Numbered from the stretch's first letter, positions 27,495 through 44,527 are shown. The stretch: 50,110 nt of DNA from Candidatus Pacearchaeota archaeon CG1_02_39_14 (GCA_001872315.1 MNVZ01000007.1:1-50110), one strand, 5' to 3'. Notes: generated by a model not told the origin, from the letters alone. Numbers and translations are program-made.

Positions 27495-29930
27495 TTATTC
27501 TGTTACCAAGCTTGCTTCTGTCGCACTGGTTCCTACATACTTCTTGCCGATGTCGGTCATAACCTCTTCGGTAGTCAAGAATGTAGCGGCATTTGTTGTG
27601 TCTCCAGCTTCATAACCTGCAACAAGAGTTGCAATCTTTCCTGTTGACCATGGGTTACTGAAGGTCTGAATAAGGAAGCTTCCTGCTCCTACACCAGTAG
27701 TACTTTCCCAGGAAGGTCCACACATGGCGGAATCTCCTCCTAACAAAGTAGATGCTACAGTGTTAACACAACTACCCCCAACAACAATAAGGTTCTTGCT
27801 TGACACGGAAGTAACTTGCGCGTCAGTTACAAGAATCTGGCCTAAATCTGCGCCTCCACTTCCAACACTTGCGTCTTCGGCTACGAAGTAGACCAAAGCT
27901 TCCAAGAAATTGTCAGGGAAAGTTGCAGTTATCTTTGAAGGAGCGCTTGATGTATCAAGGTCCTCTACAATAGCACCGTATTTGGTTCTTGTAGTAGATA
28001 GGTCAGTATTGTCGTTATCAGTTACAAATGTTCCAGAGCTTCTTCTGCTACTTGATGATATCTCGTTGTCACTGTTATTTTGCAGGTCCATCGAGAATAT
28101 CAGCTGTGCTGTGGTAAGTGGGTTCTCATCGTCGTCTCTGTCTGTATCATCAGCCATAAGACTTACCTGCCACTTATCACCTAATCCATCTCCCGGTAGT
28201 TCAGATGTGTTTATATCTGTAATGTTCAGCAATCCGTTATACTGAGTTCTCATAAGAACTGTAACGGTTTCATGAGCACTTCCAGAGTAAACAACACCAT
28301 TTGCAGCACCGCTTAAAGCGAGGTCGAAGTCGTTAGATGTATCATCAGACTTATTCACAAAAGTGAATGTAGTTCCTCCCAGTTTAAGGGTGAACTGTTC
28401 TGCTGTAGCATCATAACTTCTTGCAATAGTGCCTTCTGAATCTCCAAGGACATCTAGGTTTACCTTAGGATCACTGTCTGATGATTTATCAGCTCCCTTA
28501 TACTGAACAACAAATGTTCTTGCGTCGTTTGCCGCAGCTGAAGAATCAGCAGTATTAAGGATGAAGTAGTCATCATCTGTGATTGTTCCGTTTGGTTCCA
28601 ATACAAGTCTGTCAGAAGCCTTGTCTCCGCTATAAATACCGGTGGCATTCGCGAATACTAAAGGCATGTCAATGTCATGTCCATCAACATTCATGAATTT
28701 CAGCTTGTACTTTGTGTCTCCACTGCTTGGCTCAAGAACGATTTCCTCAGTCATATGTTCCGCAAATCCATGGAACTCAACATCCCATCCCTGCGTGAAC
28801 AATACTTCTGGTTCGTCGAGGTTGTAAGCATCGCTTAGCTTACCTCCAACAGGAACAAACAAATCATCCTCCGCGGTCATGTTTATCTGGATATCATCTA
28901 TCAAGATGTCACCTCCGCTTGTAGTGTTTGTAATGGTTACAATAGCATCACTGATTGTTTCAGTGTTTACTTTCATTGTAGTGCCATCTTCAAGCTCAAG
29001 CTTGTCAGCTCCCAAGAAGACAGTTGCATACTGAACACCTCCCTGGTAATCTTGGTAAGTGATATCGCTAACACCTACATTGATTCCAGCAATGATTGTG
29101 GTATCTCCATCATTCAATGTGTTAGAGGTTTCTCCGTTAACAGTAAGCTTAGTCTGGGTAGTACCTGTTGTAACACCTTCCACAGTGTACTGCGTTCCGT
29201 CAATTGTTACAGTATAAACTTCTCCATTGTACACATCAAGCCTCTCAACTCCGCTCATCATTGTAAGCTTAACACCATTCGAAGTGCTTTCAGCCTTCGT
29301 TATAGTATATGTCTTACCAAGCATTGTCAAGTCCTTGTCTTCAACATCTTCCAATCTTCCTGTAGAATCAAGATCAGAATCAAGAGTTGTTGTAAAGTCA
29401 AGTTCGTAGACTCCAATGTGAACTCCACTTGAGAACTTAAGGAAATCTCCAATTACGTCTTCATCATCTTCATCATAGACAACAGATGCGTTAACACCTG
29501 CAGTTGTTGATTTATCATCAAAGAAGTTGAAGAATTCTTCGTAGTTAGCAGTCCCCTTCTCGTTTGTTACAGAACCTCCACCCAAAAGGGCCCAATCATC
29601 ATCATCGATGAAAGTTTCAATTCTGAACAAAGGCTCTCCAATTTCAAGCTCGTCAGTTCCTGTGCTTACTTGCCATACATCACCACTAACTATCACATTC
29701 CCGCTTCCGCTGGACTGTGCAGCAAGTGCGTCTGACAAGTCAGACTGGATGTTTGCAGCAGCAACCAAATCGCTATTTAAGGCAGAACTACCCCAAACTA
29801 TTCCTACATCAGCAGCACCGTTCTGTACAAATGGTGCAGGATAATTTGCAGCAGCAGCCAAGGCTATTGTCGAACCTATAAGTGCGGTCGAAGCAGCAGC
29901 CGAAGCAATTTTTCTGAAGTTAAATTTCAT
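27495..29930 (-). CDS. S-layer protein
   Basis: 811 aa, signal peptide, N-term AANYPAPFVQNGAADVGIVWGSSALNSDLVAAANIQSDL and C-term VVGGSCVNTVASTLLGG...LVAGYEAGDTTNAATFL, as in methanococcal-type S-layer proteins; Asp-rich. Confidence 0.9.
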   Translation of the reverse strand: MKFNFRKIASAAASTALIGSTIALAAAANYPAPFVQNGAADVGIVWGSSALNSDLVAAANIQSDLSDALAAQSSGSGNVIVSGDVWQVSTGTDELEIGEPLFRIETFIDDDDWALLGGGSVTNEKGTANYEEFFNFFDDKSTTAGVNASVVYDEDDEDVIGDFLKFSSGVHIGVYELDFTTTLDSDLDSTGRLEDVEDKDLTMLGKTYTITKAESTSNGVKLTMMSGVERLDVYNGEVYTVTIDGTQYTVEGVTTGTTQTKLTVNGETSNTLNDGDTTIIAGINVGVSDITYQDYQGGVQYATVFLGADKLELEDGTTMKVNTETISDAIVTITNTTSGGDILIDDIQINMTAEDDLFVPVGGKLSDAYNLDEPEVLFTQGWDVEFHGFAEHMTEEIVLEPSSGDTKYKLKFMNVDGHDIDMPLVFANATGIYSGDKASDRLVLEPNGTITDDDYFILNTADSSAAANDARTFVVQYKGADKSSDSDPKVNLDVLGDSEGTIARSYDATAEQFTLKLGGTTFTFVNKSDDTSNDFDLALSGAANGVVYSGSAHETVTVLMRTQYNGLLNITDINTSELPGDGLGDKWQVSLMADDTDRDDDENPLTTAQLIFSMDLQNNSDNEISSSSRRSSGTFVTDNDNTDLSTTRTKYGAIVEDLDTSSAPSKITATFPDNFLEALVYFVAEDASVGSGGADLGQILVTDAQVTSVSSKNLIVVGGSCVNTVASTLLGGDSAMCGPSWESTTGVGAGSFLIQTFSNPWSTGKIATLVAGYEAGDTTNAATFLTTEEVMTDIGKKYVGTSATEASLVTE

Positions 29931-30340: not shown

Positions 30341-30700
30341 ATGGCGCAAAAAACAAAGACAAGGCAGATAACTATCGTCGATAAAGGGGGAACTTTCAAT
30401 ACACTCCTTAGAAGGTTCTCAGGCTCAAAGGAAGATTATGATTTTGAGGGCATTTCGGCACTAAGAAGGTTGCTTTCAAATGAAAAGGCAAGAATTCTCC
30501 ACACAATAAAAACAAATCAGCCAAATTCTGTTTATGATCTTGCTAAAATCCTGAAAAGAGATTTCAAGGCAGTGAGGGGAGACCTTGAATTGTTGTCAAG
30601 ATTTGGGTTTGTTGATTTAATTTCAGAGAAAAAAGGAAAGAGGGAAAGACTAAAACCAGTCCTCGCAGTTGATTCAATAAATATAGAGATTCAAGTCTAA
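30341..30700 (+). CDS. winged-helix transcriptional regulator
   Basis: 119 aa; NEKARILHTIKTNQPNSVYDLAKILKRDFKAVRGDLELLSRFGFVDLI. Confidence 0.82.
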   Translation: MAQKTKTRQITIVDKGGTFNTLLRRFSGSKEDYDFEGISALRRLLSNEKARILHTIKTNQPNSVYDLAKILKRDFKAVRGDLELLSRFGFVDLISEKKGKRERLKPVLAVDSINIEIQV

Positions 30701-31197
30701 TAGCAGAGTCTTAAGGTGTTTATTATCTTTCCCGGAAATGATGGGATTAGGTAACTTGCTCCTGAAATCCTGTTTCCACATTCCCCTTTCTTTATGACTA
30801 AAATCTCTTCCCTTTCAGCATCTTCTGAATCTCTGGAATATAGTGATTCAAACACATATCCCTTTATGCTTGAATTCTCCCCTGTCTTCCATGCGGTTTC
30901 CAAAACATCGTTCATCTGTTTTTCCAGCACTTCACAGCTATCCATGTCATTTATGCATATCTCTCCAGAATAACACCTCTCAAAGAGGCTTCCTAAGTCT
31001 GAATATTCATCGCTTCTTATCTGGCACTCCGTTGTAATCTCTCCTGCGCTTTCAAGAAACTGATAGACATCCTTGCTTTCCCGGTTGCTTTCATCAGGAT
31101 TCCTTATCATTATTCCAAGGAAGACCATCAGAATCACAACCACAATCACCATTATAAGAGCAAATCCTACTATCTCTTCCTGGCCTCTCTTCATCAT
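30697..31197 (-). CDS. pilin-like membrane protein, class III signal-like N-terminus
   Basis: MMKRGQEEIVGFALIMVIVVVILMVFLGIMIR. Confidence 0.7.
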   Translation of the reverse strand: MMKRGQEEIVGFALIMVIVVVILMVFLGIMIRNPDESNRESKDVYQFLESAGEITTECQIRSDEYSDLGSLFERCYSGEICINDMDSCEVLEKQMNDVLETAWKTGENSSIKGYVFESLYSRDSEDAEREEILVIKKGECGNRISGASYLIPSFPGKIINTLRLCY

Positions 31198-31694
31198 TCT
31201 GCGCTCCTAAACCCAAGGTGGATTTTACCAAGCTCACATTTAATCCCTTCATCATACCTGCATAGAGCAACAAAAGAGGTCCGGGCAATGAATCCTTCTT
31301 CCTTTATCAGAGTTATTGTGCTGCAGTCAGGGTAGTTCTGCCTTGTACACTCTCCTTTTTCAGGCACAGGATAAATTCTTTCTATCTGAAGGAAAGGAAC
31401 ATCCCAGAAATCTTCATAATTCTCACTTTCTTTAAGGATAAGTGTCTTGTCCATGTCAACACAGGCAGAGCAATCCTTCCAGCTTAATTCAGGCCATGAG
31501 CTTGCCATCCTCACAAGTTCCTTTGCTTCTTCATCTCTGATTGTTTCCACATCCTGCCTTAAGCTCCCAGACCTTATTGTAATATAAAATAAAGCCACTA
31601 TGGCAAAAAATATCATTATTGCTACTAACACAAAGGCCATCTGCTGTATCTTTACCTGTCCCTTTTTAAAATAGTTCGCACGAAAGTCTTTCAT
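31194..31694 (-). CDS. pilin-like membrane protein, class III signal-like N-terminus
   Basis: MKDFRANYFKKGQVKIQQMAFVLVAIMIFFAIVALFYITIRSG; trimmed start. Confidence 0.68.
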   Translation of the reverse strand: MKDFRANYFKKGQVKIQQMAFVLVAIMIFFAIVALFYITIRSGSLRQDVETIRDEEAKELVRMASSWPELSWKDCSACVDMDKTLILKESENYEDFWDVPFLQIERIYPVPEKGECTRQNYPDCSTITLIKEEGFIARTSFVALCRYDEGIKCELGKIHLGFRSAE

Positions 31695-32580
31695 TTTTGT
31701 CCTCAATTTCCTCTGAATTTGATTTTACAACCCTCAAGTCTCCGGAATTTTCAAATTCTCCTAAAAGAGAGGAATATCTTCCCAAATCCCCCGCAAGATT
31801 GCTTGAACATCCTTTTCCGGCAAGGAATTCTGATTTCTTTGCATAAATCTCTGCTAATTCGGAAGTTCTTTTTATAAGTCTCCTGACCTGACATTCATAG
31901 ACTTCAGCATCACTAAATATTGCTGCATAAACAAGCCCCTCTTCATAGTAAAGCCCGTCAACATCAGTCTGGCTTACTTTTTTGTCACAATCTCTGTCAA
32001 ATGAAGAGAAACAGACTTTAATGCTTTCAGGCTTGCATTTTTCCAGGCTTTCGCTGATATTGATGCCAGGGAGCCTCAAATCCATGACTTCTTCTTCAAT
32101 CTCATCTCCCGGATTAATGAAACAGTACTCTCCAGAGTAAATTGTGATGATATCAGCTACATCATAGGGCATTTCAAAAGACTTAACAAAAACGTAAGCC
32201 TCTTCCCCCTGCAGAACACTCTTTGAAAAAACATACTTGTCCTTGCTTTCTATCTCCCCTCCCGGAGGCAACCACTCCTTTCCTATCCCGCTTCTTACTG
32301 AAGTGCTTATTAACTGGCTGCCAAATATTCCGATGCTTGAGCATCTATTATAAATTCTTGTTTCATCCGGAAATCCTATTCTGACAAATTTAGAATCCTC
32401 GAGATTAGTTCCAACAGGGCTTAATATTGACTCAAGCTGGGCCGCAATTTTAGTGTCCGTTTCATACCTGCCGCTCCCAATCAGGCTTGTTGTAGCATAA
32501 ATTGCCAGAAAAATTACAACAGCACCAACAAGTATGGCAAAAAGCCAGGCAAAACTAAATTCAAATCCTTTTCTGTTCAT
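31666..32580 (-). CDS. membrane-anchored protein with pilin-like N-terminus
   Basis: MNRKGFEFSFAWLFAILVGAVVIFLAIYATTSLI; 304 aa. Confidence 0.68.
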   Translation of the reverse strand: MNRKGFEFSFAWLFAILVGAVVIFLAIYATTSLIGSGRYETDTKIAAQLESILSPVGTNLEDSKFVRIGFPDETRIYNRCSSIGIFGSQLISTSVRSGIGKEWLPPGGEIESKDKYVFSKSVLQGEEAYVFVKSFEMPYDVADIITIYSGEYCFINPGDEIEEEVMDLRLPGINISESLEKCKPESIKVCFSSFDRDCDKKVSQTDVDGLYYEEGLVYAAIFSDAEVYECQVRRLIKRTSELAEIYAKKSEFLAGKGCSSNLAGDLGRYSSLLGEFENSGDLRVVKSNSEEIEDKNERLSCELF

Positions 32581-33089
32581 CTTCTAGCTTCCGTGCTTGG
32601 AATCTTTATTTTAACAAGAGAATCAAGGCTGTTTTTTTCCAATCCTATCCTGACTTCTCCGTTTTCTGCCTGGAAGCATACAAATCCTGATGAAGTATCT
32701 ATATGTTCAATATTTACATACGGTTGGTCGCATGCCTCTTCAGCAGGATAAAAAAGCATATTTCCCCTGGCAATATATCTTTTCAGCTCTCTGAATTCAT
32801 CCGCATATTCAGCTGATGTTGCTGTAGGGCTTGAGAAGCATACAGACTCAATTCCATTAGGGACTCTTCCTGTATAAACATCACTCACGATTTCAGAAGT
32901 CCAGGCCCTGTCAACGCTGTCCTGAAAACTATCCTTAAAAAGGCCGATATCTGCACATTTTCCTATTCCCATAAAAGCTACTATCACATAAATGCTGGCT
33001 CCGATTATAGCGATGACAATAATTATAGAAAAAATAACTCCCACACTTAGAAACTCTGTCTGTCCTCTTCTCCCCTCTCTAATCATCAA
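32577..33089 (-). CDS. pilin-like membrane protein, class III signal-like N-terminus
   Basis: MIREGRRGQTEFLSVGVIFSIIIVIAIIGASIYVIVAFM. Confidence 0.7.
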   Translation of the reverse strand: MMIREGRRGQTEFLSVGVIFSIIIVIAIIGASIYVIVAFMGIGKCADIGLFKDSFQDSVDRAWTSEIVSDVYTGRVPNGIESVCFSSPTATSAEYADEFRELKRYIARGNMLFYPAEEACDQPYVNIEHIDTSSGFVCFQAENGEVRIGLEKNSLDSLVKIKIPSTEARR

Positions 33090-33120
33090 TGAAACTGGGA
33101 AATTTTATAATTAAATGTTT

Positions 33121-34617
33121 CTATTTGTTCTTTTGATTCTTTCCATTAATCTTGTAAGTATATCCTTCCTTATATCCCTCAAAACCTGCCCAGTTGACTC
33201 CTGGTCCGCAGTCTCCGAGAGCGCTGCATATCTCTCCCTGCCTCTCAATCCACGCATCAGTCAGGCATTCACAATTTTCTGTGCATTCCTCTCCTCCAAA
33301 CAATCCTTTTTCAATACTTACTACACACTGAACATTCGCCTGGCTGCATATTGCCTGAGCTTCTTCAGAATTCCAAAAACTTAATCCTGGGGAGGTTTCA
33401 GGAAGGCAAACTCCTTTCTTCCCGTTCCCAAGAACGCCATTTGGCTCCCAGAAGCAAGTTCTTCTGTCAGTATTGAGGCAATCTTCTTCAGTTTTCTGTG
33501 CGGTGCAATCCTGCCATCTGTTGACTCTGCATGCCGCTTGTGAGAAAGGACCATTTGCAGTTTCTATTGAATCTTCAATGCAAACCTCAGCTCTAAAATC
33601 CTCGCATGCTTCAGGAACAACCTCTCCGTTGATGCAGACATATCTAAAGTCCCTGCTCCCTACCCTGTCTTCTCCAGGCCCTTCCTTTTCGTCACCGATA
33701 CACCAACTTTCCCCATGCAGTCTTTCCTGTCCTTCAAACTCGCAGTTCAAATCAGCACAAATATAATCCCCATAAGTCGGGCTTGCTCCAGCATCATTTT
33801 CATGCCTTGCAAAACTTCCAAGAAGATAGTCACAATTCCCACAAGTCCTTGATTCTGCATTGCTTCGCCCATAACCGCAGCTTTCATCTTTTCTCTTTAA
33901 GTTTGTCCAGTATTCCTGATCCTCCACTTTTGAGGCATCATAAATATTAGCAGAATTTCCACAGCTGTCCTTCCAGTAAACCTCATCTTTCCCGGGGATA
34001 GTCATAGTGTCCCTTGTGGGACCGCATATTGTCCCTAATTCCTCCGCAGAGCACAGCTTACCTATATAGAACTCGCTTCCATCAACACTTTCGCAGTCAG
34101 ATTTTGTCGTAAACTTGCATGTTCTTTCAAACTCGCTCTTAAATACGCACGCTCCCTTGTCCTGATTCTGGACAGAAGCAATGCATGCGACTTCTGATTT
34201 TATGCTTTGGTCATAATTTGTCTGCAGTCCAAGAAAAGAAGAAAGCTTCTTGCATCTCACTAATGTAACAAAAGCTGCCTGGTCTCCAAGGGTGCAGCAT
34301 CCAAGTCCGCACTGTGGAGGGCTCTCCTCACTCCATATTCCCCCATTCTGGTTGCAAACTAATTGAGGAGTGTTATCAGAACAGGTTCCTTCAGTAGAAT
34401 CATAACAAGTCCCTTCTCTGCAGAAGCTTGTGGCTTCACAGCTTGTTGGAACCTGCCGGCTTCCTTCTGCGCATTCTTCAGAAGGCACATTTTGGCAGTA
34501 CGCCCCGGCATTTGTCTGCTCACAGCAGACTGTATTGCTCTGTGCAGATGTATAATTAGCAAGGGAAAGAACTGCAAGGGAGGCTAACACAATGATAAAA
34601 ATAAGTCTTTTGCTCAT
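33121..34617 (-). CDS. secreted Cys-rich protein, paralogue of N-terminal half of 35691-39311 product
   Basis: 498 aa; signal peptide; GTCYDSTEGTCSDNTPQLVCNQNGGIWSEESPPQCGLGCCTLGD. Confidence 0.75.
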   Translation of the reverse strand: MSKRLIFIIVLASLAVLSLANYTSAQSNTVCCEQTNAGAYCQNVPSEECAEGSRQVPTSCEATSFCREGTCYDSTEGTCSDNTPQLVCNQNGGIWSEESPPQCGLGCCTLGDQAAFVTLVRCKKLSSFLGLQTNYDQSIKSEVACIASVQNQDKGACVFKSEFERTCKFTTKSDCESVDGSEFYIGKLCSAEELGTICGPTRDTMTIPGKDEVYWKDSCGNSANIYDASKVEDQEYWTNLKRKDESCGYGRSNAESRTCGNCDYLLGSFARHENDAGASPTYGDYICADLNCEFEGQERLHGESWCIGDEKEGPGEDRVGSRDFRYVCINGEVVPEACEDFRAEVCIEDSIETANGPFSQAACRVNRWQDCTAQKTEEDCLNTDRRTCFWEPNGVLGNGKKGVCLPETSPGLSFWNSEEAQAICSQANVQCVVSIEKGLFGGEECTENCECLTDAWIERQGEICSALGDCGPGVNWAGFEGYKEGYTYKINGKNQKNK

Positions 34618-34895
34618 CTTTCAGCTCCTGAATAACTTTCATTTTTGGTGTAAGCTTCCCTTAATTCATTTAATCCATTTTCCAATTCTTTAACATCATC
34701 TGGAGCCATAAGTCCGGTAGCTCTAAGCCTTCTGAAATCGGAGATTGCTGCTCCAATACTAACTGCTAAATGGTCAAGATAGTCCTGAGGTGCTCCCATT
34801 CTTCTATTTCTTTTGCTAAATGCGTTTGTATGCCCATAGATTCTTCTCTTCAAATTCTCAACCTCTTCACTAAATCCTTTTACATGCGCTATCAT
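34614..34895 (-). CDS. hypothetical cytosolic 93-aa protein in pilin-like operon
   Basis: ATGA overlaps with both neighbours. Confidence 0.65.
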   Translation of the reverse strand: MIAHVKGFSEEVENLKRRIYGHTNAFSKRNRRMGAPQDYLDHLAVSIGAAISDFRRLRATGLMAPDDVKELENGLNELREAYTKNESYSGAER

Positions 34896-35653
34896 ATTTC
34901 TTCTACTCCATAACCCTGCGGCCAGACAAGGCTTCTTGTCGCAAACTGGAACTCATCCTTTGAAACCACATTGCTTAATGTATACAATGTATTTCCATCC
35001 CTTTTTATCTTTTCTATTTTTAAATCTGGATAATACTGTATATATATTAGCGTTTCTGTATCGCCAAGAGTTGACTCAAAATCAACTATGCTTGAAGCTG
35101 TCAGAAGAAGGTCATACATTTCTGTATCAATTGAGCTTGAAAACTTCCTGAAAGTCTGGACGTTCTCCTTGCTGATAGTCATTGGTGAAAGGAATTCAAG
35201 ATTAAGTTTCCCCGGAATAAATGTGACATTCAAATTCCCTACATCTGCCTGAACATCATATCCTTTTGTCTCATAAAGCTTCTTCAGGTCATTCACGCAT
35301 TGTCTTGCTCTTGGCTCTATCTGCTTCTTCAATTCCATCTCAAAATTTCTCTTTATCAGGGGCTGTTGGACAACGCAAGGCTCATAAAATTCAGAAGTAT
35401 AGCAAAAATATGTAAATTTTTCTCCTTGGTAACTAACATAACTTTCAGGCTCGAGATATCCTCCGTTCATTGCCAACTGCTCCATTGTCTCCCTTGCATC
35501 ATCTTCTATGCAGTTTGCTAGGTATGAGTTCGGCTCAACATCCGTGATATAAACCTGCAGTCTTGGAGCAAGAAAGATAACCGCAACAACTCCAACTATT
35601 ATGACAGCAACAATGACAAAAAGCGTAACCTGTCCCCTTTTTCCGGTATCCAT
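34892..35653 (-). CDS. pilin-like membrane protein
   Basis: MDTGKRGQVTLFVIVAVIIVGVVAVIFLAP; paralogue of 39311-40069 product. Confidence 0.72.
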   Translation of the reverse strand: MDTGKRGQVTLFVIVAVIIVGVVAVIFLAPRLQVYITDVEPNSYLANCIEDDARETMEQLAMNGGYLEPESYVSYQGEKFTYFCYTSEFYEPCVVQQPLIKRNFEMELKKQIEPRARQCVNDLKKLYETKGYDVQADVGNLNVTFIPGKLNLEFLSPMTISKENVQTFRKFSSSIDTEMYDLLLTASSIVDFESTLGDTETLIYIQYYPDLKIEKIKRDGNTLYTLSNVVSKDEFQFATRSLVWPQGYGVEEI

Positions 35654-35690
35654 GCATTATCAAGCCCGATTTTCTTTATAATCCTTGCGA

Positions 35691-38600
35691 TTAATATCCA
35701 GACCTTGCCGTAGTGCAGCTTCCTGTATTGCCCCAGCCATCCTGACACTTTATGTAATAGTTTATCTGCGAATTGAAATCAGTAGTGTGCACTAAATCTG
35801 ACCCAGACATCTCAAATACATTCTCTCCTTCTATCTGGAAGCCGCAGCTATTGTGGCTGTAATAGCACATAGATTCTTCATTAGTTATCACTGTCAGCCT
35901 GCTTCCCTGTGAATAAACTCTTGTAATCATAGGCCCGATATCATCAACGTCTATCTCAAACTGCACGCCCGATTCAGCTACATTACCTGTGTCGTCCTCA
36001 CATCTTATCCCTATATCATAACTTCCCTCGAACAAGCTGGTGAAAACCTGCCTGTGCATGTCTGTCCCCGATTCAAAGAATCTTGCCAAATCATTATCCC
36101 CTCCAAATCCATAAGTGCAATACCGGTTCACAGGCGCCCCGCCAGAAGTTTCAACCTCTAGAGTAACTGTAACAGGTTGAGCTCCAGTGCTTATAACTCC
36201 CTCTTCCGCTTCAGGGTTCAATCTTATTTCTTCAATTATCAATAGTTCGCTTGTCTTTATGATCTTATACTCTACACCCTCATTATTTGTGTTCCTTTCT
36301 TCCTGTCCTGGCCTGTCTTTGCATCTGAAATAATAATTGGTTTCATTTTCGGAAACAGGAAGATTTGCACTGCACTCAAATCCAAACAGAGTATAATCTT
36401 CAAAATCATTATTGCAGGAAATTTCATTTTCCATCTGCTCATAATCTTTGTCTGTCAAACTGTATCTGCATTCAGCAGGCTCATTTGTATAGAAAGACAT
36501 GTTCATATTTTCTGCTTCCAGGGAGGCATAAGCAGGGCTTTCAGGCTCAAAGTTCTGCAATATCGGAGGGGTGATATCATTCTCTGGCGAGATACAGAAT
36601 CTTATTGCAAATTCATTCTCATTCTTGTTTCCAGAACCGTCTTGGCATCTTACAAATAAGTCAAAGTCAGCTCTTCTGTCAGGATCAAATCCGAACTCTC
36701 CCAGACTTTCCAGGCTTGGAAGGGATAATGCTGTAACATGATTTTTCTTGAAAAGGCTGCTCTCTCCAAAGAAGAATTCCATTTCATCATATTCTGCTGT
36801 ATGTTCAGTATCATACTTACACTGCCCGTGCTCATCCAGACTCACCCCAAAAGTAACCTGCGTATAAGCGGGGATGCATTCATTTTCCTTATGTTCCACT
36901 TTAAAGCTTCCGCTTGTAACCTCGGTATATTCAAAATCTTCTGAAATCACTTCATAATTAGGGCTTATTTTTGGGGCAAGAGTGTCATCTGGGGCAATGT
37001 CAATACATGCCTCCTCGCCTGTTCCTTCATTCACAAATTCACATGTCTGCCCAAGACTCTGGCATTTGTATTTAGAACAAGGCAAGTCTCCTTCAGTACA
37101 TGCCTCACAGCTATCTCCCCCAAGAGGCGGCTGCCACGGCATGCATGTAAATGCAACTTTCTTGGTTCTTGTATCTCCAATTCCAAGGAATTTGAATATT
37201 AGTATGATTATGATTATAACAATAATCGTCCACAATAACCAGCCATAACTAAACAATGCAACTCCATTGAATAGGCCGGGGATTCCAGTTGAGACAAACA
37301 ATCCTGTTGCAGCCCCTAATATTGTTACAGCAAGCAAAGCATCTCCCTCTAATCCAAATAATTTGCCAAGCAAGAATCCAATTGCAGCTCCAGCCGCAGC
37401 TCCAGCCGCAGCATTCAAGAAGGAGCTAGTAAAAGTAAACCCTTGATGCCCTAAGGCACCAAAGACTTCTGTAAATGTAAGCCCAACATTAACAAAGACG
37501 TAAGTATAATAGGCTAATACTACTCCCGTAGCTCCTGCTCCAAGACCTCCAATAATATTTGCAAGCTTGCTTTCAAACTCCGGATCATTTGGATCAAGAC
37601 CGAATAATGCGGCCGTCTCTTCTTCTGTTAATGGATCAACCTTCTGTCCTTGCACTGGCTCGGTATAAGATTGTAGTTCAGAAATATAATTTTGCCTTAA
37701 TTTCGGAGATCTTTTCACACTATACCCCGAGTCTGTAAATTCTCCTGCAATATTCACATTCCCTCCGCAATCTCCCAGGCTAATGCATAAATTATTCATT
37801 GTTTCTGCAAATCCAGGTTTAAGACAATCGCAATTGACTTCGCAATCCCATCCCCCAAAGCCTTTGACCTCAACAACAGTACATGTCTGTGTAGCAGCAG
37901 AACAAATAGATTCCCCTACTTCTCCCCCGAATTCTTCTTTTAAATCAAATCCAGGAGAATGCTTCGGAGCGCACACATCAAATTTGAAATTGCTTATTCT
38001 CACAGACTTTAAAAAACAGGCACTATTTTCTTCACATCTATCCAGTTTAGTTTTATCCTGGTTTGCAGCAATACATGACTGCCAGTTATTTATCCTGCAG
38101 GCAGCGCTGGAAAACCCAATCTCTTCATCCCTGGATTCCTGACATACTTCATTTCTGAAATCCTGGCACGGATCTGTCCTTACCTCTCCATCAACACAAA
38201 CCTGTCTGTAATGTCTGCTTCCTGGCAAATCAACGCTCCTTTCCTTATTCTTTGTGTCCCCCTGCACGCCTATTGCAGAATCAAAAGCGCACCAGCTCTC
38301 TCCGTTCTTTCTCTCCGCCCCCCATTCATCTATACATGACAGGTCTCTGCAGACATATTCTCCTTCTAAGGGCTTTTCATCATCTTCCCCAGGAGTTCCG
38401 CACAAACTTCCAAGAAGATAGTCGCAATTCCCACATCCTTCCTGATTGCTTCCATCAAGAGAGCAGCTTTCGTTCTTGCTGTAAATTCTGCTCCAGTAAT
38501 CATCATTGGCCTTCTTGTTGGTATCATAAACATTAGCTCTGTTTCCGCATGAGTCAAGGAAATAAACCTCGTCCTTGCTTTCAAAACAGCTCGTCTCTTT

Positions 38601-39311
38601 TGTTCTAGTGCAGATAGTATTTAACCCAGGATTCGTGCACAGCAATCCGGAATTAAACTCTCCTCCCATAGAAATGCAGTTTGCTTCAGTAGTAAATTCA
38701 CAATCGTACAAGCCGGGTTCCACTTCCTCCAAAACGCACGCCCCATCCTGCTGCTGCTCTCCTAATAGAAGGCATTCCAGTTCATTTTCAACTTCCTGCC
38801 ACTCCCCGGAAATTCCCAGTCTGTTCTCAAGAACGCTGCATGCCTGTTCAGTAATATAATTTGCATTTCCTCCAATAAGACAGCAACCTGGATTGCATTG
38901 TGCAGGCTCCTGCTCAAACCATTGCCCTCCTGAATTTTCACAAGCAAGTTTTGGAGACTGTGCAGAACAGGTTCCTTCCAGGTTGTCATAGCATGTCCCC
39001 AGCTGACATTCACGTGTTTCGCTTCTTTTAGAAGGAATGCAATCTTCTAAGCATAAGTCGTTGCATATTTCCGACGGATACTCCTGACATATGGTTCCAT
39101 TCAGGCCCTCAAGGCACGTCCATAACCCTTCCTGCGCGCTCACTAGCCCATTAGATAAATACCCAAGTATCTTTTCTCTAAGCCAGGTAACAGTTTCATC
39201 CTCAACTGATTTTCCCGGAACAAGTGCAGAACTTTCATGAATAAAATATGAAACAGCAAAACCTGCAGCAATCATAATAAATATTTCAAACAAAGCAATA
39301 TTTTTTCTCAT
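35691..39311 (-). CDS. giant Cys-rich membrane protein (1206 aa) with central multi-TM segment and extracellular Ig-like modules
   Basis: Trimmed start MRKNIALFEIFIMIAAGFAVSYF overlapping upstream stop (ATGA); CCLIGGN, GNCDYLLGS, AAAGAAAGAAIGFLLG, repeated FxFRCKD/VRCQDGSGN modules. Confidence 0.75.
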   Translation of the reverse strand: MRKNIALFEIFIMIAAGFAVSYFIHESSALVPGKSVEDETVTWLREKILGYLSNGLVSAQEGLWTCLEGLNGTICQEYPSEICNDLCLEDCIPSKRSETRECQLGTCYDNLEGTCSAQSPKLACENSGGQWFEQEPAQCNPGCCLIGGNANYITEQACSVLENRLGISGEWQEVENELECLLLGEQQQDGACVLEEVEPGLYDCEFTTEANCISMGGEFNSGLLCTNPGLNTICTRTKETSCFESKDEVYFLDSCGNRANVYDTNKKANDDYWSRIYSKNESCSLDGSNQEGCGNCDYLLGSLCGTPGEDDEKPLEGEYVCRDLSCIDEWGAERKNGESWCAFDSAIGVQGDTKNKERSVDLPGSRHYRQVCVDGEVRTDPCQDFRNEVCQESRDEEIGFSSAACRINNWQSCIAANQDKTKLDRCEENSACFLKSVRISNFKFDVCAPKHSPGFDLKEEFGGEVGESICSAATQTCTVVEVKGFGGWDCEVNCDCLKPGFAETMNNLCISLGDCGGNVNIAGEFTDSGYSVKRSPKLRQNYISELQSYTEPVQGQKVDPLTEEETAALFGLDPNDPEFESKLANIIGGLGAGATGVVLAYYTYVFVNVGLTFTEVFGALGHQGFTFTSSFLNAAAGAAAGAAIGFLLGKLFGLEGDALLAVTILGAATGLFVSTGIPGLFNGVALFSYGWLLWTIIVIIIIILIFKFLGIGDTRTKKVAFTCMPWQPPLGGDSCEACTEGDLPCSKYKCQSLGQTCEFVNEGTGEEACIDIAPDDTLAPKISPNYEVISEDFEYTEVTSGSFKVEHKENECIPAYTQVTFGVSLDEHGQCKYDTEHTAEYDEMEFFFGESSLFKKNHVTALSLPSLESLGEFGFDPDRRADFDLFVRCQDGSGNKNENEFAIRFCISPENDITPPILQNFEPESPAYASLEAENMNMSFYTNEPAECRYSLTDKDYEQMENEISCNNDFEDYTLFGFECSANLPVSENETNYYFRCKDRPGQEERNTNNEGVEYKIIKTSELLIIEEIRLNPEAEEGVISTGAQPVTVTLEVETSGGAPVNRYCTYGFGGDNDLARFFESGTDMHRQVFTSLFEGSYDIGIRCEDDTGNVAESGVQFEIDVDDIGPMITRVYSQGSRLTVITNEESMCYYSHNSCGFQIEGENVFEMSGSDLVHTTDFNSQINYYIKCQDGWGNTGSCTTARSGY

Positions 39312-40069
39312 CAGAATCCAGGCGGAATAGCACACCCCCTTATAGCTACGTTCATTTTGTCTCCGGAATCCTTGTAAATTATGGTATATATCTTTGTCGA
39401 GTCTGAAAGAGTATATTTCCTTATATCAAATTCAGGATATAAGAGCATGAATCCAAGATATTCAAAATAGCAATATTTGGCTTCCTGCCTGGCGATTTCA
39501 TTTGCCGTATAGCCTAAATCATATAGATTGCTTTTTATTGTTGAAGTGAAATATTCAAAGTTTCTGCTTTCTTCCTCTCTGGAAATCTGCATGTCCCTAT
39601 AAACAACAATCTCAACACTGCCCGGTTTTAGAGTGGCCTTAATTTCAATTTCATCTCCACCAACCTGATAATTTCTTCTTTCCAGCTCATCTTCTAATTC
39701 AAGGAAGCAGGATTCAACATCTTCCCTTATTCCGGATTCAAGCTCTTGTTTTAAAGTTGTAAGATAAACAGGATACTGGGCAATGCACGGCTCATAATAA
39801 TTCACATTTTTGCAAAGGTATGCAACATTTGAATCATCATACTTAACATAATCGCTTGGGCTCAAAAATCCTCCCTGCGGGAGCATCACATCTATTTTTT
39901 TCCTTGTGCTCTCTCTGATGCACCTGTCCATAAAAGATTCAGGATTGAATTCCTGTTCCAGGCCTATATCTATTCCCCTCTGCTGGAACACAGCGAAGAA
40001 GACTATCACCGCTCCGACCAAAAGAATTCCAACAATGACAAAAAGAGTTATCTGCCCCTTATTGTTCAT
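39311..40069 (-). CDS. pilin-like membrane protein
   Basis: MNNKGQITLFVIVGILLVGAVIVFFAVFQQRG; trimmed start. Confidence 0.72.
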   Translation of the reverse strand: MNNKGQITLFVIVGILLVGAVIVFFAVFQQRGIDIGLEQEFNPESFMDRCIRESTRKKIDVMLPQGGFLSPSDYVKYDDSNVAYLCKNVNYYEPCIAQYPVYLTTLKQELESGIREDVESCFLELEDELERRNYQVGGDEIEIKATLKPGSVEIVVYRDMQISREEESRNFEYFTSTIKSNLYDLGYTANEIARQEAKYCYFEYLGFMLLYPEFDIRKYTLSDSTKIYTIIYKDSGDKMNVAIRGCAIPPGF

Positions 40070-40208
40070 TTTTCTTCTCCCTCTCAATGAGTATTTTTAG
40101 AGCTTCTTCAACGAGATGAGCTTTATTTCGGTATTTGCCCTTTTTCATGATTTCATCTATGGCTTTTCTCGTCTTAGGCTCAATAGTTGCTGATACCCTC
40201 TCTTTCAT
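40059..40208 (-). CDS. ribbon-helix-helix (CopG/Arc-like) protein, 49 aa
   Basis: Own translation MKERVSATIEPKTRKAIDEIMKKGKYRNKAHLVEEALKILIEREKKNEQ; below ORF track cut-off. Confidence 0.75.
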   Translation of the reverse strand: MKERVSATIEPKTRKAIDEIMKKGKYRNKAHLVEEALKILIEREKKNEQ

Positions 40209-42733: not shown

Positions 42734-44527
42734 ATGAAAAAATCAGGGGTGCTTGCATTTTTGTTTATTCTGCTGTTATTGTATCCGGTAATTGCCCAGG
42801 AAGAGGAGGGAATTGACAAGGCATATCTCTGTCTTGAGAATCAGATAGCAAACAAGACTTCAGGATCCCTGTCCTTGCAGGAAGCTGTTTTCTCAACTCT
42901 CGCTCTAGGCTCTGAATCAAAGCTTACTGATAAAATTGAAGATGAAAGATCAAACCAGAATTGCTGGCCAAAAGAATCCTGCACAATAAAGGACACAGCA
43001 CAGGTGCTCATAGCATACGACAGGATAAACAAGAACACAGAATCAATACAATCATATTTACTGTCAAGAAACGGCTCTGCAACCGACCTCACATGGTATT
43101 TGCAGGTAGATATTTCAAATCATATACCCTCCGCATGTACTTTTACCTACGATGAGAGGGATTATCAGGTAAGCATCGGCGAAGACATGAAAATTTCAGG
43201 CAGTGCAGGATCCTGTCTTCAATTAAGCTCTTCAGGGTATTGGTTGCAGATATCAAGAAATTGTTTCGAAAAAACTTTCCAGGTCTCTTGCGACGAAGAT
43301 TTCATAACCTCTCTTCTTTATCAAAAATCAGGTTCGGAAACAATATATGTTTCTTCTGAAACCCATTCGGCGCCTTCTTCCGGAACGACAGAGGAGCGCG
43401 TGGACTCCCAGTGCTTCAAGTCAGGAAGTTCATGTGATTATGAGGGGACTTTATGGGCTGCATTGGCATTGCAAAAAGCAGGCGAGGAAATATCTTCGTT
43501 CCTGCCATATCTTCTTGCTCTATCAGAAGATCATAATAACTTATTTCCGAGTTCCTTTCTGTATCTTCTTACCTCCGGAGATGACCAATACTCCCAGATA
43601 ACGCAGGCACAGAAAACGGCAGGATTCTGGGAAGCTCCAAATACGAAGTACAACAAATTCTATGACACCTCACTCGGCCTTCTAGCCCTGCAGGATTCTT
43701 CCGCAGCGGAATCTGACACCGCGAAGGCATATCTGCTATCAGTTCAGACCCCAAAAGGGTGCTGGAACAATAATAATATCAGAGACACAGCATTTCTTCT
43801 CTATTCAGGATGGCCAAGAGGAGTTTCTTCAGGTGGTGGGGAAGGAGAAGGTGGAGAATTAACTTGCGCAGGGGCGGGATACTATTGTGGTTCCCAATTT
43901 GACTGCGCAGAATCTGAAGGACAGATTTTGAACGAGTTCAGCTGCCAGGGTTTCCAGTCCTGTTGTTCGGTTCCAATAATTGAGCAGACTTGCTCTGAAA
44001 AATCAGGAGTTTTATGCTCATTTAGTGAGCAATGTTCAGGAACGGAAGTTTCTTCTGTTGAAGGCACATGCTGTCTTGGTTCCTGCCGGCCTATAACTCT
44101 GGAAACTTCGGAGTGCGAGGACAATGGAGGATTCTGTTCTTCCTTCTGTGAAGATAATGAAGAACAGGCTTCATATTCCTGCGGAAATTCCGGAGGAGTG
44201 TGCTGCATACCAAGTGAAAGTTCCGGAGGGATTTCCTTAATTTGGATTGTTCTCCTTGCAATCCTTATATTGCTGGTCGTTCTGGGAATAATCTTCAGAG
44301 ACAAAATAAAGCTCTGGTGGTTCAAGATGAGAAACAGGAAGAATTCTGATAAGAGTCCTTCAGAAATGTCTGGTCCAAGGCCACCTCCAAGATTCCCTCC
44401 AGTTCAAAGAGGGCCTCCGATTCAGAGACAGCCGTTGATGAGAAGGCCGCAGCCGAGAAGGGCATCATCGAGGGCCGATAGCGATATGGAAGAGACTCTT
44501 AGAAAGCTTAAAGAAATGAGTAAATAA
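42734..44527 (+). CDS. secreted protein with terpenoid-cyclase-like alpha domain, three Cys-rich modules, TM anchor and Pro/Arg-rich cytosolic tail
   Basis: Signal peptide; DTSLGLLALQDSS...TPKGCWNNNNIRDTAFLLYSGW; C-rich modules ending in CC; TM; PRPPPRFPPVQRGPP. Confidence 0.72.
   Translation: MKKSGVLAFLFILLLLYPVIAQEEEGIDKAYLCLENQIANKTSGSLSLQEAVFSTLALGSESKLTDKIEDERSNQNCWPKESCTIKDTAQVLIAYDRINKNTESIQSYLLSRNGSATDLTWYLQVDISNHIPSACTFTYDERDYQVSIGEDMKISGSAGSCLQLSSSGYWLQISRNCFEKTFQVSCDEDFITSLLYQKSGSETIYVSSETHSAPSSGTTEERVDSQCFKSGSSCDYEGTLWAALALQKAGEEISSFLPYLLALSEDHNNLFPSSFLYLLTSGDDQYSQITQAQKTAGFWEAPNTKYNKFYDTSLGLLALQDSSAAESDTAKAYLLSVQTPKGCWNNNNIRDTAFLLYSGWPRGVSSGGGEGEGGELTCAGAGYYCGSQFDCAESEGQILNEFSCQGFQSCCSVPIIEQTCSEKSGVLCSFSEQCSGTEVSSVEGTCCLGSCRPITLETSECEDNGGFCSSFCEDNEEQASYSCGNSGGVCCIPSESSGGISLIWIVLLAILILLVVLGIIFRDKIKLWWFKMRNRKNSDKSPSEMSGPRPPPRFPPVQRGPPIQRQPLMRRPQPRRASSRADSDMEETLRKLKEMSK

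Follow-up and report, generated by a model that had tools for sequence, protein, structure and literature searches.

Pilin-like and cysteine-rich proteins encoded together in a conserved operon of Candidatus Pacearchaeota, a possible tip complex of an archaeal type IV filament

In bacteria, the assembly of type IVa pili (T4aP) starts from four minor pilins (HIJK) capped by PilC/PilY1, the cap subunit of the minor-pilin complex itself being devoid of Glu5, and minor pilins of the HIJK type are common to T4aP and to the type II secretion system (T2SS) (PMC10191384). In Archaea, a census of pili published in 2016 described loci with minor pilins, DUF2341 PilY-like proteins and S-layer-like proteins, notably of the Methanococci type, together with one clade of nanoarchaeal pilus ATPases for which cognate pilins could not be identified (PMC4858521). 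Two type IV pilus systems have been attributed to Nanoarchaeota (PMC6142677). Host-attached size fractions show an enrichment in Pacearchaeota, and ultrasmall cells in groundwater bear pili-like appendages that reach into hosts (PMC7906910). Here we describe an operon of nine genes (g9 to g1, Table 1) in a stretch of 50,110 nucleotides (the window) from Candidatus Pacearchaeota archaeon CG1_02_39_14 (GCA_001872315.1 MNVZ01000007.1:1-50110). The window is contig 18 of a 0.69-Mb draft genome (G000; 35 contigs, 86% complete); its close relatives in the collection of genomes belong to Candidatus Pacearchaeota, and this small-genome archaeon is probably host-dependent. The operon encodes six pilin-like proteins (g9, g7, g4, g3, g2 and g1) and two Cys-rich partners (g8 and g5). 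We propose tentatively, giving the proposal slightly less than an even chance, that it specifies the minor-pilin tip or initiation complex, together with the tip adhesins, of an archaeal type IV filament that serves in contact between cells. No published description of this operon was found in the open-access literature, subscription papers and preprints aside.

Like the PilHIJK and PilC/PilY1 tip of T4aP, the operon combines four small pilins with a large exported non-pilin, prepilin-type signals and a presumed tip adhesin. Unlike that tip, it has a pair of paralogous adhesin-like proteins, to each of which a pilin-like partner of its own corresponds; a Cys core and a Gly-rich transmembrane (TM) block are not known in PilY1. 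It shares with the archaeal pili of the census the class III-type signals, several minor pilins, large exported proteins and an S-layer neighbour, in a genome which carries an A24 peptidase, a T2SSE ATPase and TadC, and it differs from the census loci in having neither ATPase nor TadC in the locus and neither DUF2341 nor any other Pfam match.

Prepilin-type signals were searched with a mechanical pattern, [KRN](KR)[GAS] followed by a hydrophobic helix, applied to all the open reading frames (ORFs) of the window. The scan marked the six pilin-like genes out of the nine operon genes and 2 of the 49 other ORFs, both of them weak look-alikes without KG. The signals are conserved by column across 76 loci, which were obtained by scanning the collection with the Cys-rich family and using the best 80 of 188 relatives (Pacearchaeota, Woesearchaeota, "Nanoarchaeota/Nanoarchaeia" and unnamed-archaeon assemblies, plus one labelled Aenigmatarchaeota and one labelled bacterium). 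For g9 and g7, position -1 is G, A or S in 119/124 sequences and position +1 is Gln in 107/124; for g1, Gln at +1 and Glu at +3 are found in 17/17. These proteins thus present the features by which type IV filament subunits are recognized, namely a K/R, G/A/S at -1 and an unbroken hydrophobic helix, as a sequence-only reading of this DNA had announced for all six. The five KGQ-type proteins which it had called short include three of 166-169 aa, for which the word is apt, and two of 252-253 aa, for which it is not. It had also expected a major subunit within the operon, and this expectation was not borne out: Glu at +5, the mark of the canonical major pilin (KGQxxxE type), is present in none of the six, the Glu+5 pilins seen in a partial genome-wide count for G000 (RGQAAMEFLMTYGW, KGQSSVEF, KGQVWVE) are encoded outside the operon, and the head of g9 is atypical.

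The nine genes lie on the minus strand between 30697 and 40069 and form one tightly coupled operon, whose junctions mostly overlap or nearly touch. About ten genes starting from 40208 had been anticipated; their strand and place are confirmed, their number is nine, and the first start is at 40069 (ATG) or 40087 (TTG). Five ATGA overlaps had been listed as well, of which four are indeed overlaps of 4 nt (34892-34895, 34614-34617, 32577-32580 and 31194-31197) and the one at 39311 is of 1 nt; g3 and g2 overlap by about 29 nt. Among the operon junctions of the loci, 159/250 are of 10 nt or less, against 92/252 for the other same-strand junctions of the same loci (p = 2e-9, a generous value because the loci are related to each other).

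The gene set is widely conserved. Homologues of g9 were detected in 52/56 relatives, and the g9 pilin family, counted with a 632-aa paralogue, in 316 of the 371 genomes sampled in the phylum (85%) and in 217/243 of those of good quality. The order of the locus is primase-pcna, g9-g8, g7-g5-(C-module), g4-g3-g2-g1, a convergent winged-helix gene and an S-layer gene; in the loci of Woesearchaeota the part which is kept begins with the pairs, includes g1 and ends at the S-layer gene. The synteny search proposed across Pacearchaeota and Woesearchaeota therefore recovers a shared order, pilin-Cys, pilin-Cys, g4-g3-g2-g1, S-layer.

Pilin and Cys-rich genes are paired throughout, with a median gap of 5 nt (n = 120 pairs). 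Distances between pilins and distances between Cys cores are correlated (r = 0.77), and swapping partners within loci lowers the correlation to 0.35 +/- 0.04, the observed value being reached in 0/500 trials. In addition, when each protein is matched with its closest relative from a different locus, the copy ranks agree in 76/76 cases, for the pilin and the Cys-rich protein alike. Taken together, the distance correlation and the match of copy ranks indicate that an early duplication copied the pair as a whole and that the partners have not been exchanged since. Coevolution of pilin and core beyond shared ancestry was considered and rejected as not specific (partial r of 0.49, against 0.37 and 0.55 in controls). 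A third pair, observed in every such locus examined, consists of the 632-aa protein, whose N-terminus resembles that of g9, and of a partner coupled to it, which in relatives measures 1650-2500 aa (L073:4011-5909 and L073:1-4014 in G000:C10; L049-L053 and L155-L161 in relatives). Its neighbours include ftsY/SRP54 genes, and the TadC-like platform gene is often found tens of kb away on that contig.

The Cys-rich proteins g8 and g5 are paralogues with Cys contents of 5.3% and 8.2% respectively, for a window mean of 1.7%. Both had been described as giant Cys-rich proteins; the richness in Cys is real for both, the size only for g8, g5 being 498 aa long. The g8 protein carries a hydrophobic helix at its N-terminus, followed by about 500 aa of Cys core and by a Gly-rich hydrophobic block in which about four TM helices are predicted; then come a conserved CxxW.PP.GG.DC..C motif and repeats which we read as Ig-like from their pattern, Pfam giving only a weak hint. 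As for the second Cys copy, most relatives encode it as a core and an adjacent separate ORF for a TM/Ig-like C-module (21 Cys), and in some relatives both copies are fused (core and C-module). Since the two parts are fused in some relatives and are neighbouring ORFs in most, core and C-module probably work together as a unit. Hydropathy counts for 39 fused proteins place TM segments at the N-terminus and in the interval between core and C-module, a single one within a core and none in the C-module; 34/39 have 1-7 segments in this interval. The density of the small-xxx-small-xxx-small pattern is 0.054 in the Gly-rich interval versus 0.011 in the core. Neither g8 nor g5 has a Pfam or NCBIfam match, and a profile search of Protein Data Bank (PDB) sequences gave no convincing match. 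The model of g5, which covers the Cys core, has a pLDDT of 83 and a pTM of 0.60 and finds no Foldseek match in the PDB at E <= 0.001. These partners are of the Sec type and, by analogy, are placed like tip adhesins; a position at the tip and a function in adhesion, as had been suggested, may be envisaged.

The pilin-like proteins are equally distant from described families. Searches of Pfam and NCBIfam with all the operon proteins gave chance-level matches only, none above the cut-off; the view that these are undescribed proteins is thus upheld, no operon protein being placed in a named family by these profiles. The hint of an EF-hand in g3 (Pfam E 0.1) was set aside, since the motif is not maintained across 23 homologues. 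The profiles of g9 and g7 found no convincing match among PDB sequences. Across 118 homologues of g9, the Gln at +1 and two Cys are invariant, and in the structure predicted from them (mean pLDDT 94) a flexible linker joins a helix (4-30) to an alpha/beta head; for this model Foldseek returned nothing from the PDB or BFVD libraries at E <= 0.001.

No assembly ATPase had been seen in the window, and indeed every PF00437 match is on another contig. The search of the genome for pilus machinery, advised at the same time, was successful: one A24 prepilin peptidase (PF01478 at G000:C35:701-1012, E 1.4e-15), T2SSE ATPases in at least four loci (C19, C23, C34 and C35), a T2SSF protein at C19 and a 711-aa two-domain TadC-like platform protein at C35, without a Pfam T2SSF match of its own, all lie outside the window. 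A genome lacking any prepilin peptidase or ATPase would have spoken against a pilus; both are present, so that this genome encodes, besides the operon, the peptidase, the extension ATPase and the platform protein expected of a type IV filament. The compact locus of C35 (L048:206-13732) encodes a 758-aa ATPase and the platform protein together with about eight class III-signal-like proteins, and it ends with the A24 peptidase gene. The C35 platform protein is found in 54/56 relatives (51-77% identity for almost every genome of the order) and the PF01478 peptidase in 52/56; roughly half of the short loci that were examined have an ATPase close to the platform gene. In 40 distant genomes, a C35-type platform of at least 470 bits is present in 20/20 with the g9 family versus 4/20 without it, in a count which ignores kinship; the other 16/20 genomes without the family have only divergent versions of the platform, and nearly all have a peptidase. 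Beside the C35 pilus locus, three paralogous multi-TM proteins of 160-190 aa (LPFLLVFVVxYAxLxKTK) are encoded at L048:15188-16848, and such proteins are also found near a TadC-like gene in G045 (L156:9946-11543). At C34 (L047), a second pilus locus with its own TadC, the T2SSE ATPase gene is split by an intein-like insertion with a homing-endonuclease-like stretch.

A tip/adhesin cassette is the simplest reading of these data because four small Glu5-less pilins, two pilin-like proteins and two Cys-rich proteins are encoded together, the Glu5 pilins being elsewhere. By analogy, the operon would best be understood as working like the bacterial HIJK and PilC/PilY1 tip while being unrelated to it in sequence. 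The six class III-signal precursors would be cut by the A24 prepilin peptidase of the genome, and the four small pilins g4-g1 would form a minor-pilin priming complex. The g9 and g7 proteins would each carry a globular head on a flexible linker and hold their own partner, g8 for g9 and g5 for g7; these disulfide-rich partners, exported by the Sec pathway, would be displayed at or near the tip as adhesins. The extension ATPase and the two-domain platform protein of C35 could then push the filament through the S-layer, whose gene adjoins the operon, and the whole would serve to contact a host or neighbour cell specifically and to hold it. The pilus-like structure with a Cys-rich tip imagined by the sequence-only reading thus keeps its signals, its conserved unit and its machinery in the genome, and loses its major subunit.

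Several observations weigh against this proposal. In the model of g9, a short helix at the N-terminus leads through the linker to an alpha/beta head, and the usual pilin beta domain is missing; predicted structures lacking a pilin helix plus beta domain had been named as a reason to abandon the idea, and for g9 the model would satisfy one half of it, the helix being present and the usual beta domain absent. An ATPase or platform gene is found in 0/76 loci, and for this reason the link between the operon and C35 rests on co-occurrence; since separate pilin loci are common in the census (PMC4858521), this lack of an in-locus ATPase is typical, not strictly defining. The co-occurrence of platform and g9 family could itself come from phylogeny alone, and four genomes (family f15) have the C35-type platform without the g9 family. 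Given the PCNA and primase distances, the within-copy pilin/core correlation (r = 0.49) is no higher than that of this housekeeping pair (0.55), and the test therefore gives no sign of physical binding. Lastly, g5 and g8 do not belong to PilC/PilY1 by sequence (PilY1/DUF2341; Pfam, NCBIfam and PDB) or, for the g5 core model, by fold.

Some of these features would suit a non-filamentous surface complex, in which the signals would serve for export and membrane anchoring and the proteins would build stalked adhesin or receptor assemblies in the S-layer, to which the Sulfolobus bindosome is comparable in principle. The short TM helix, linker and head of g9 and g7, atypical for a pilin, the lack of Glu+5 in all six proteins, the adjoining S-layer gene and the loci without ATPase are all in agreement with it. 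Four extra small pilins, conserved and in fixed order, nevertheless suggest an assembly, and the distribution follows that of the platform protein, so that we hold this explanation to be rather unlikely, while deserving attention. The same four pilins could also recall the minor pseudopilins HIJK of T2SS, which have prepilin-type signals too; since HIJK-type minor pilins occur in both T2SS and T4aP (PMC10191384), g1-g4 might be the tip of a short pseudopilus, and the Cys-rich proteins, which have N-terminal export signals, its cargo or exit device. Cys-rich partners are however not a feature of T2SS pseudopilins, the operon proteins have no Pfam match, the stable 1:1 pairing of Cys-rich protein and pilin and the TM block of g8 fit a structural part better than a released cargo, and a single-membrane archaeon has no outer membrane to cross; this explanation appears clearly improbable.

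The TM segments between core and C-module of the fused proteins, their absence from the C-module and the high density of small residues in the interval could also be taken as signs of contact-dependent translocation, in which the Gly-rich multi-TM block of g8 and of the C-modules would enter the membrane of the partner, driven or positioned by the pilin-like subunits, as might befit small, probably host-dependent genomes. However, the block could just anchor the protein in the membrane of its producer, the TM evidence consists of hydropathy counts only, and g5 has no Gly-rich block in this genome, which makes such a mechanism very unlikely in our opinion. Returning to the minor-pilin tip with adhesins, we keep it as our working proposal, with the reserve expressed above.

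Table 1. Genes of the operon and its 3' neighbours (positions in the window; the slash in a signal separates positions -1 and +1)
Gene	Coordinates	Strand	Product	Remarks
g9	39311..40069	(-)	pilin-like protein A, 252 aa	class III-type signal MNNKG/QITLFVIV; alpha/beta head without known fold
g8	35691..39311	(-)	giant Cys-rich partner A, 1206 aa, 64 Cys	
g7	34892..35653	(-)	pilin-like protein B, 253 aa	signal KRG/QVTLFVIV; g9 paralogue, 31% identity
g6	34614..34895	(-)	93 aa, predicted cytosolic	restricted to closest relatives
g5	33121..34617	(-)	Cys-rich partner B, 498 aa, 41 Cys	signal peptide and Cys core only
g4	32577..33086	(-)	small pilin-like protein, 169 aa	RRG/QTEFLSVGVIFSIIIV
g3	31666..32580	(-)	pilin-like protein, 304 aa	RKG/FEFSFAWLFAI; usually 8 Cys in Pacearchaeota
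g2	31194..31694	(-)	small pilin-like protein, 166 aa	KKG/QVKIQQMAFVLVA
g1	30697..31197	(-)	small pilin-like protein, 166 aa	KRG/QEEIVGFALI
convergent gene	30341..30700	(+)	winged-helix-like, probable regulator, 119 aa	3' end overlaps g1 by 4 nt; adjoins g1 in 13 loci
S-layer-like gene	27495..29930	(-)	S-layer-like protein	PF05124 barely above cut-off; homologue 3' of operon in Pacearchaeota and Woesearchaeota loci

Among the genes of Table 1, g6 is probably outside the conserved system, and the convergent winged-helix-like gene may encode a regulator acting on the operon or on the S-layer gene. Elsewhere in the window, an exported protein of 597 aa with 28 Cys, a C-terminal TM helix and a basic tail is encoded at 42734-44527 (+), and its homologues adjoin primase and pcna in 25/77 loci.

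The richness in Cys raises the question of how dozens of extracellular disulfides are formed by such small genomes, and at least one head domain, that of g9, is confidently predicted while having no PDB match and belonging to no named family. A bolder view, to which we attach very little probability, is that of a phylum-wide contact device of DPANN archaea, in which class III-signal subunits, each bearing a disulfide-rich partner of its own, would bring a Gly-rich multi-helix block to the membrane of the host and create a passage for nutrients or DNA; if this were true, the operon would be the missing uptake machine of host-dependent archaea. As it stands, the operon offers a concrete and near-universal gene set for the way in which Pacearchaeota and Woesearchaeota may recognize and hold their hosts, with named proteins to express, pair and image.

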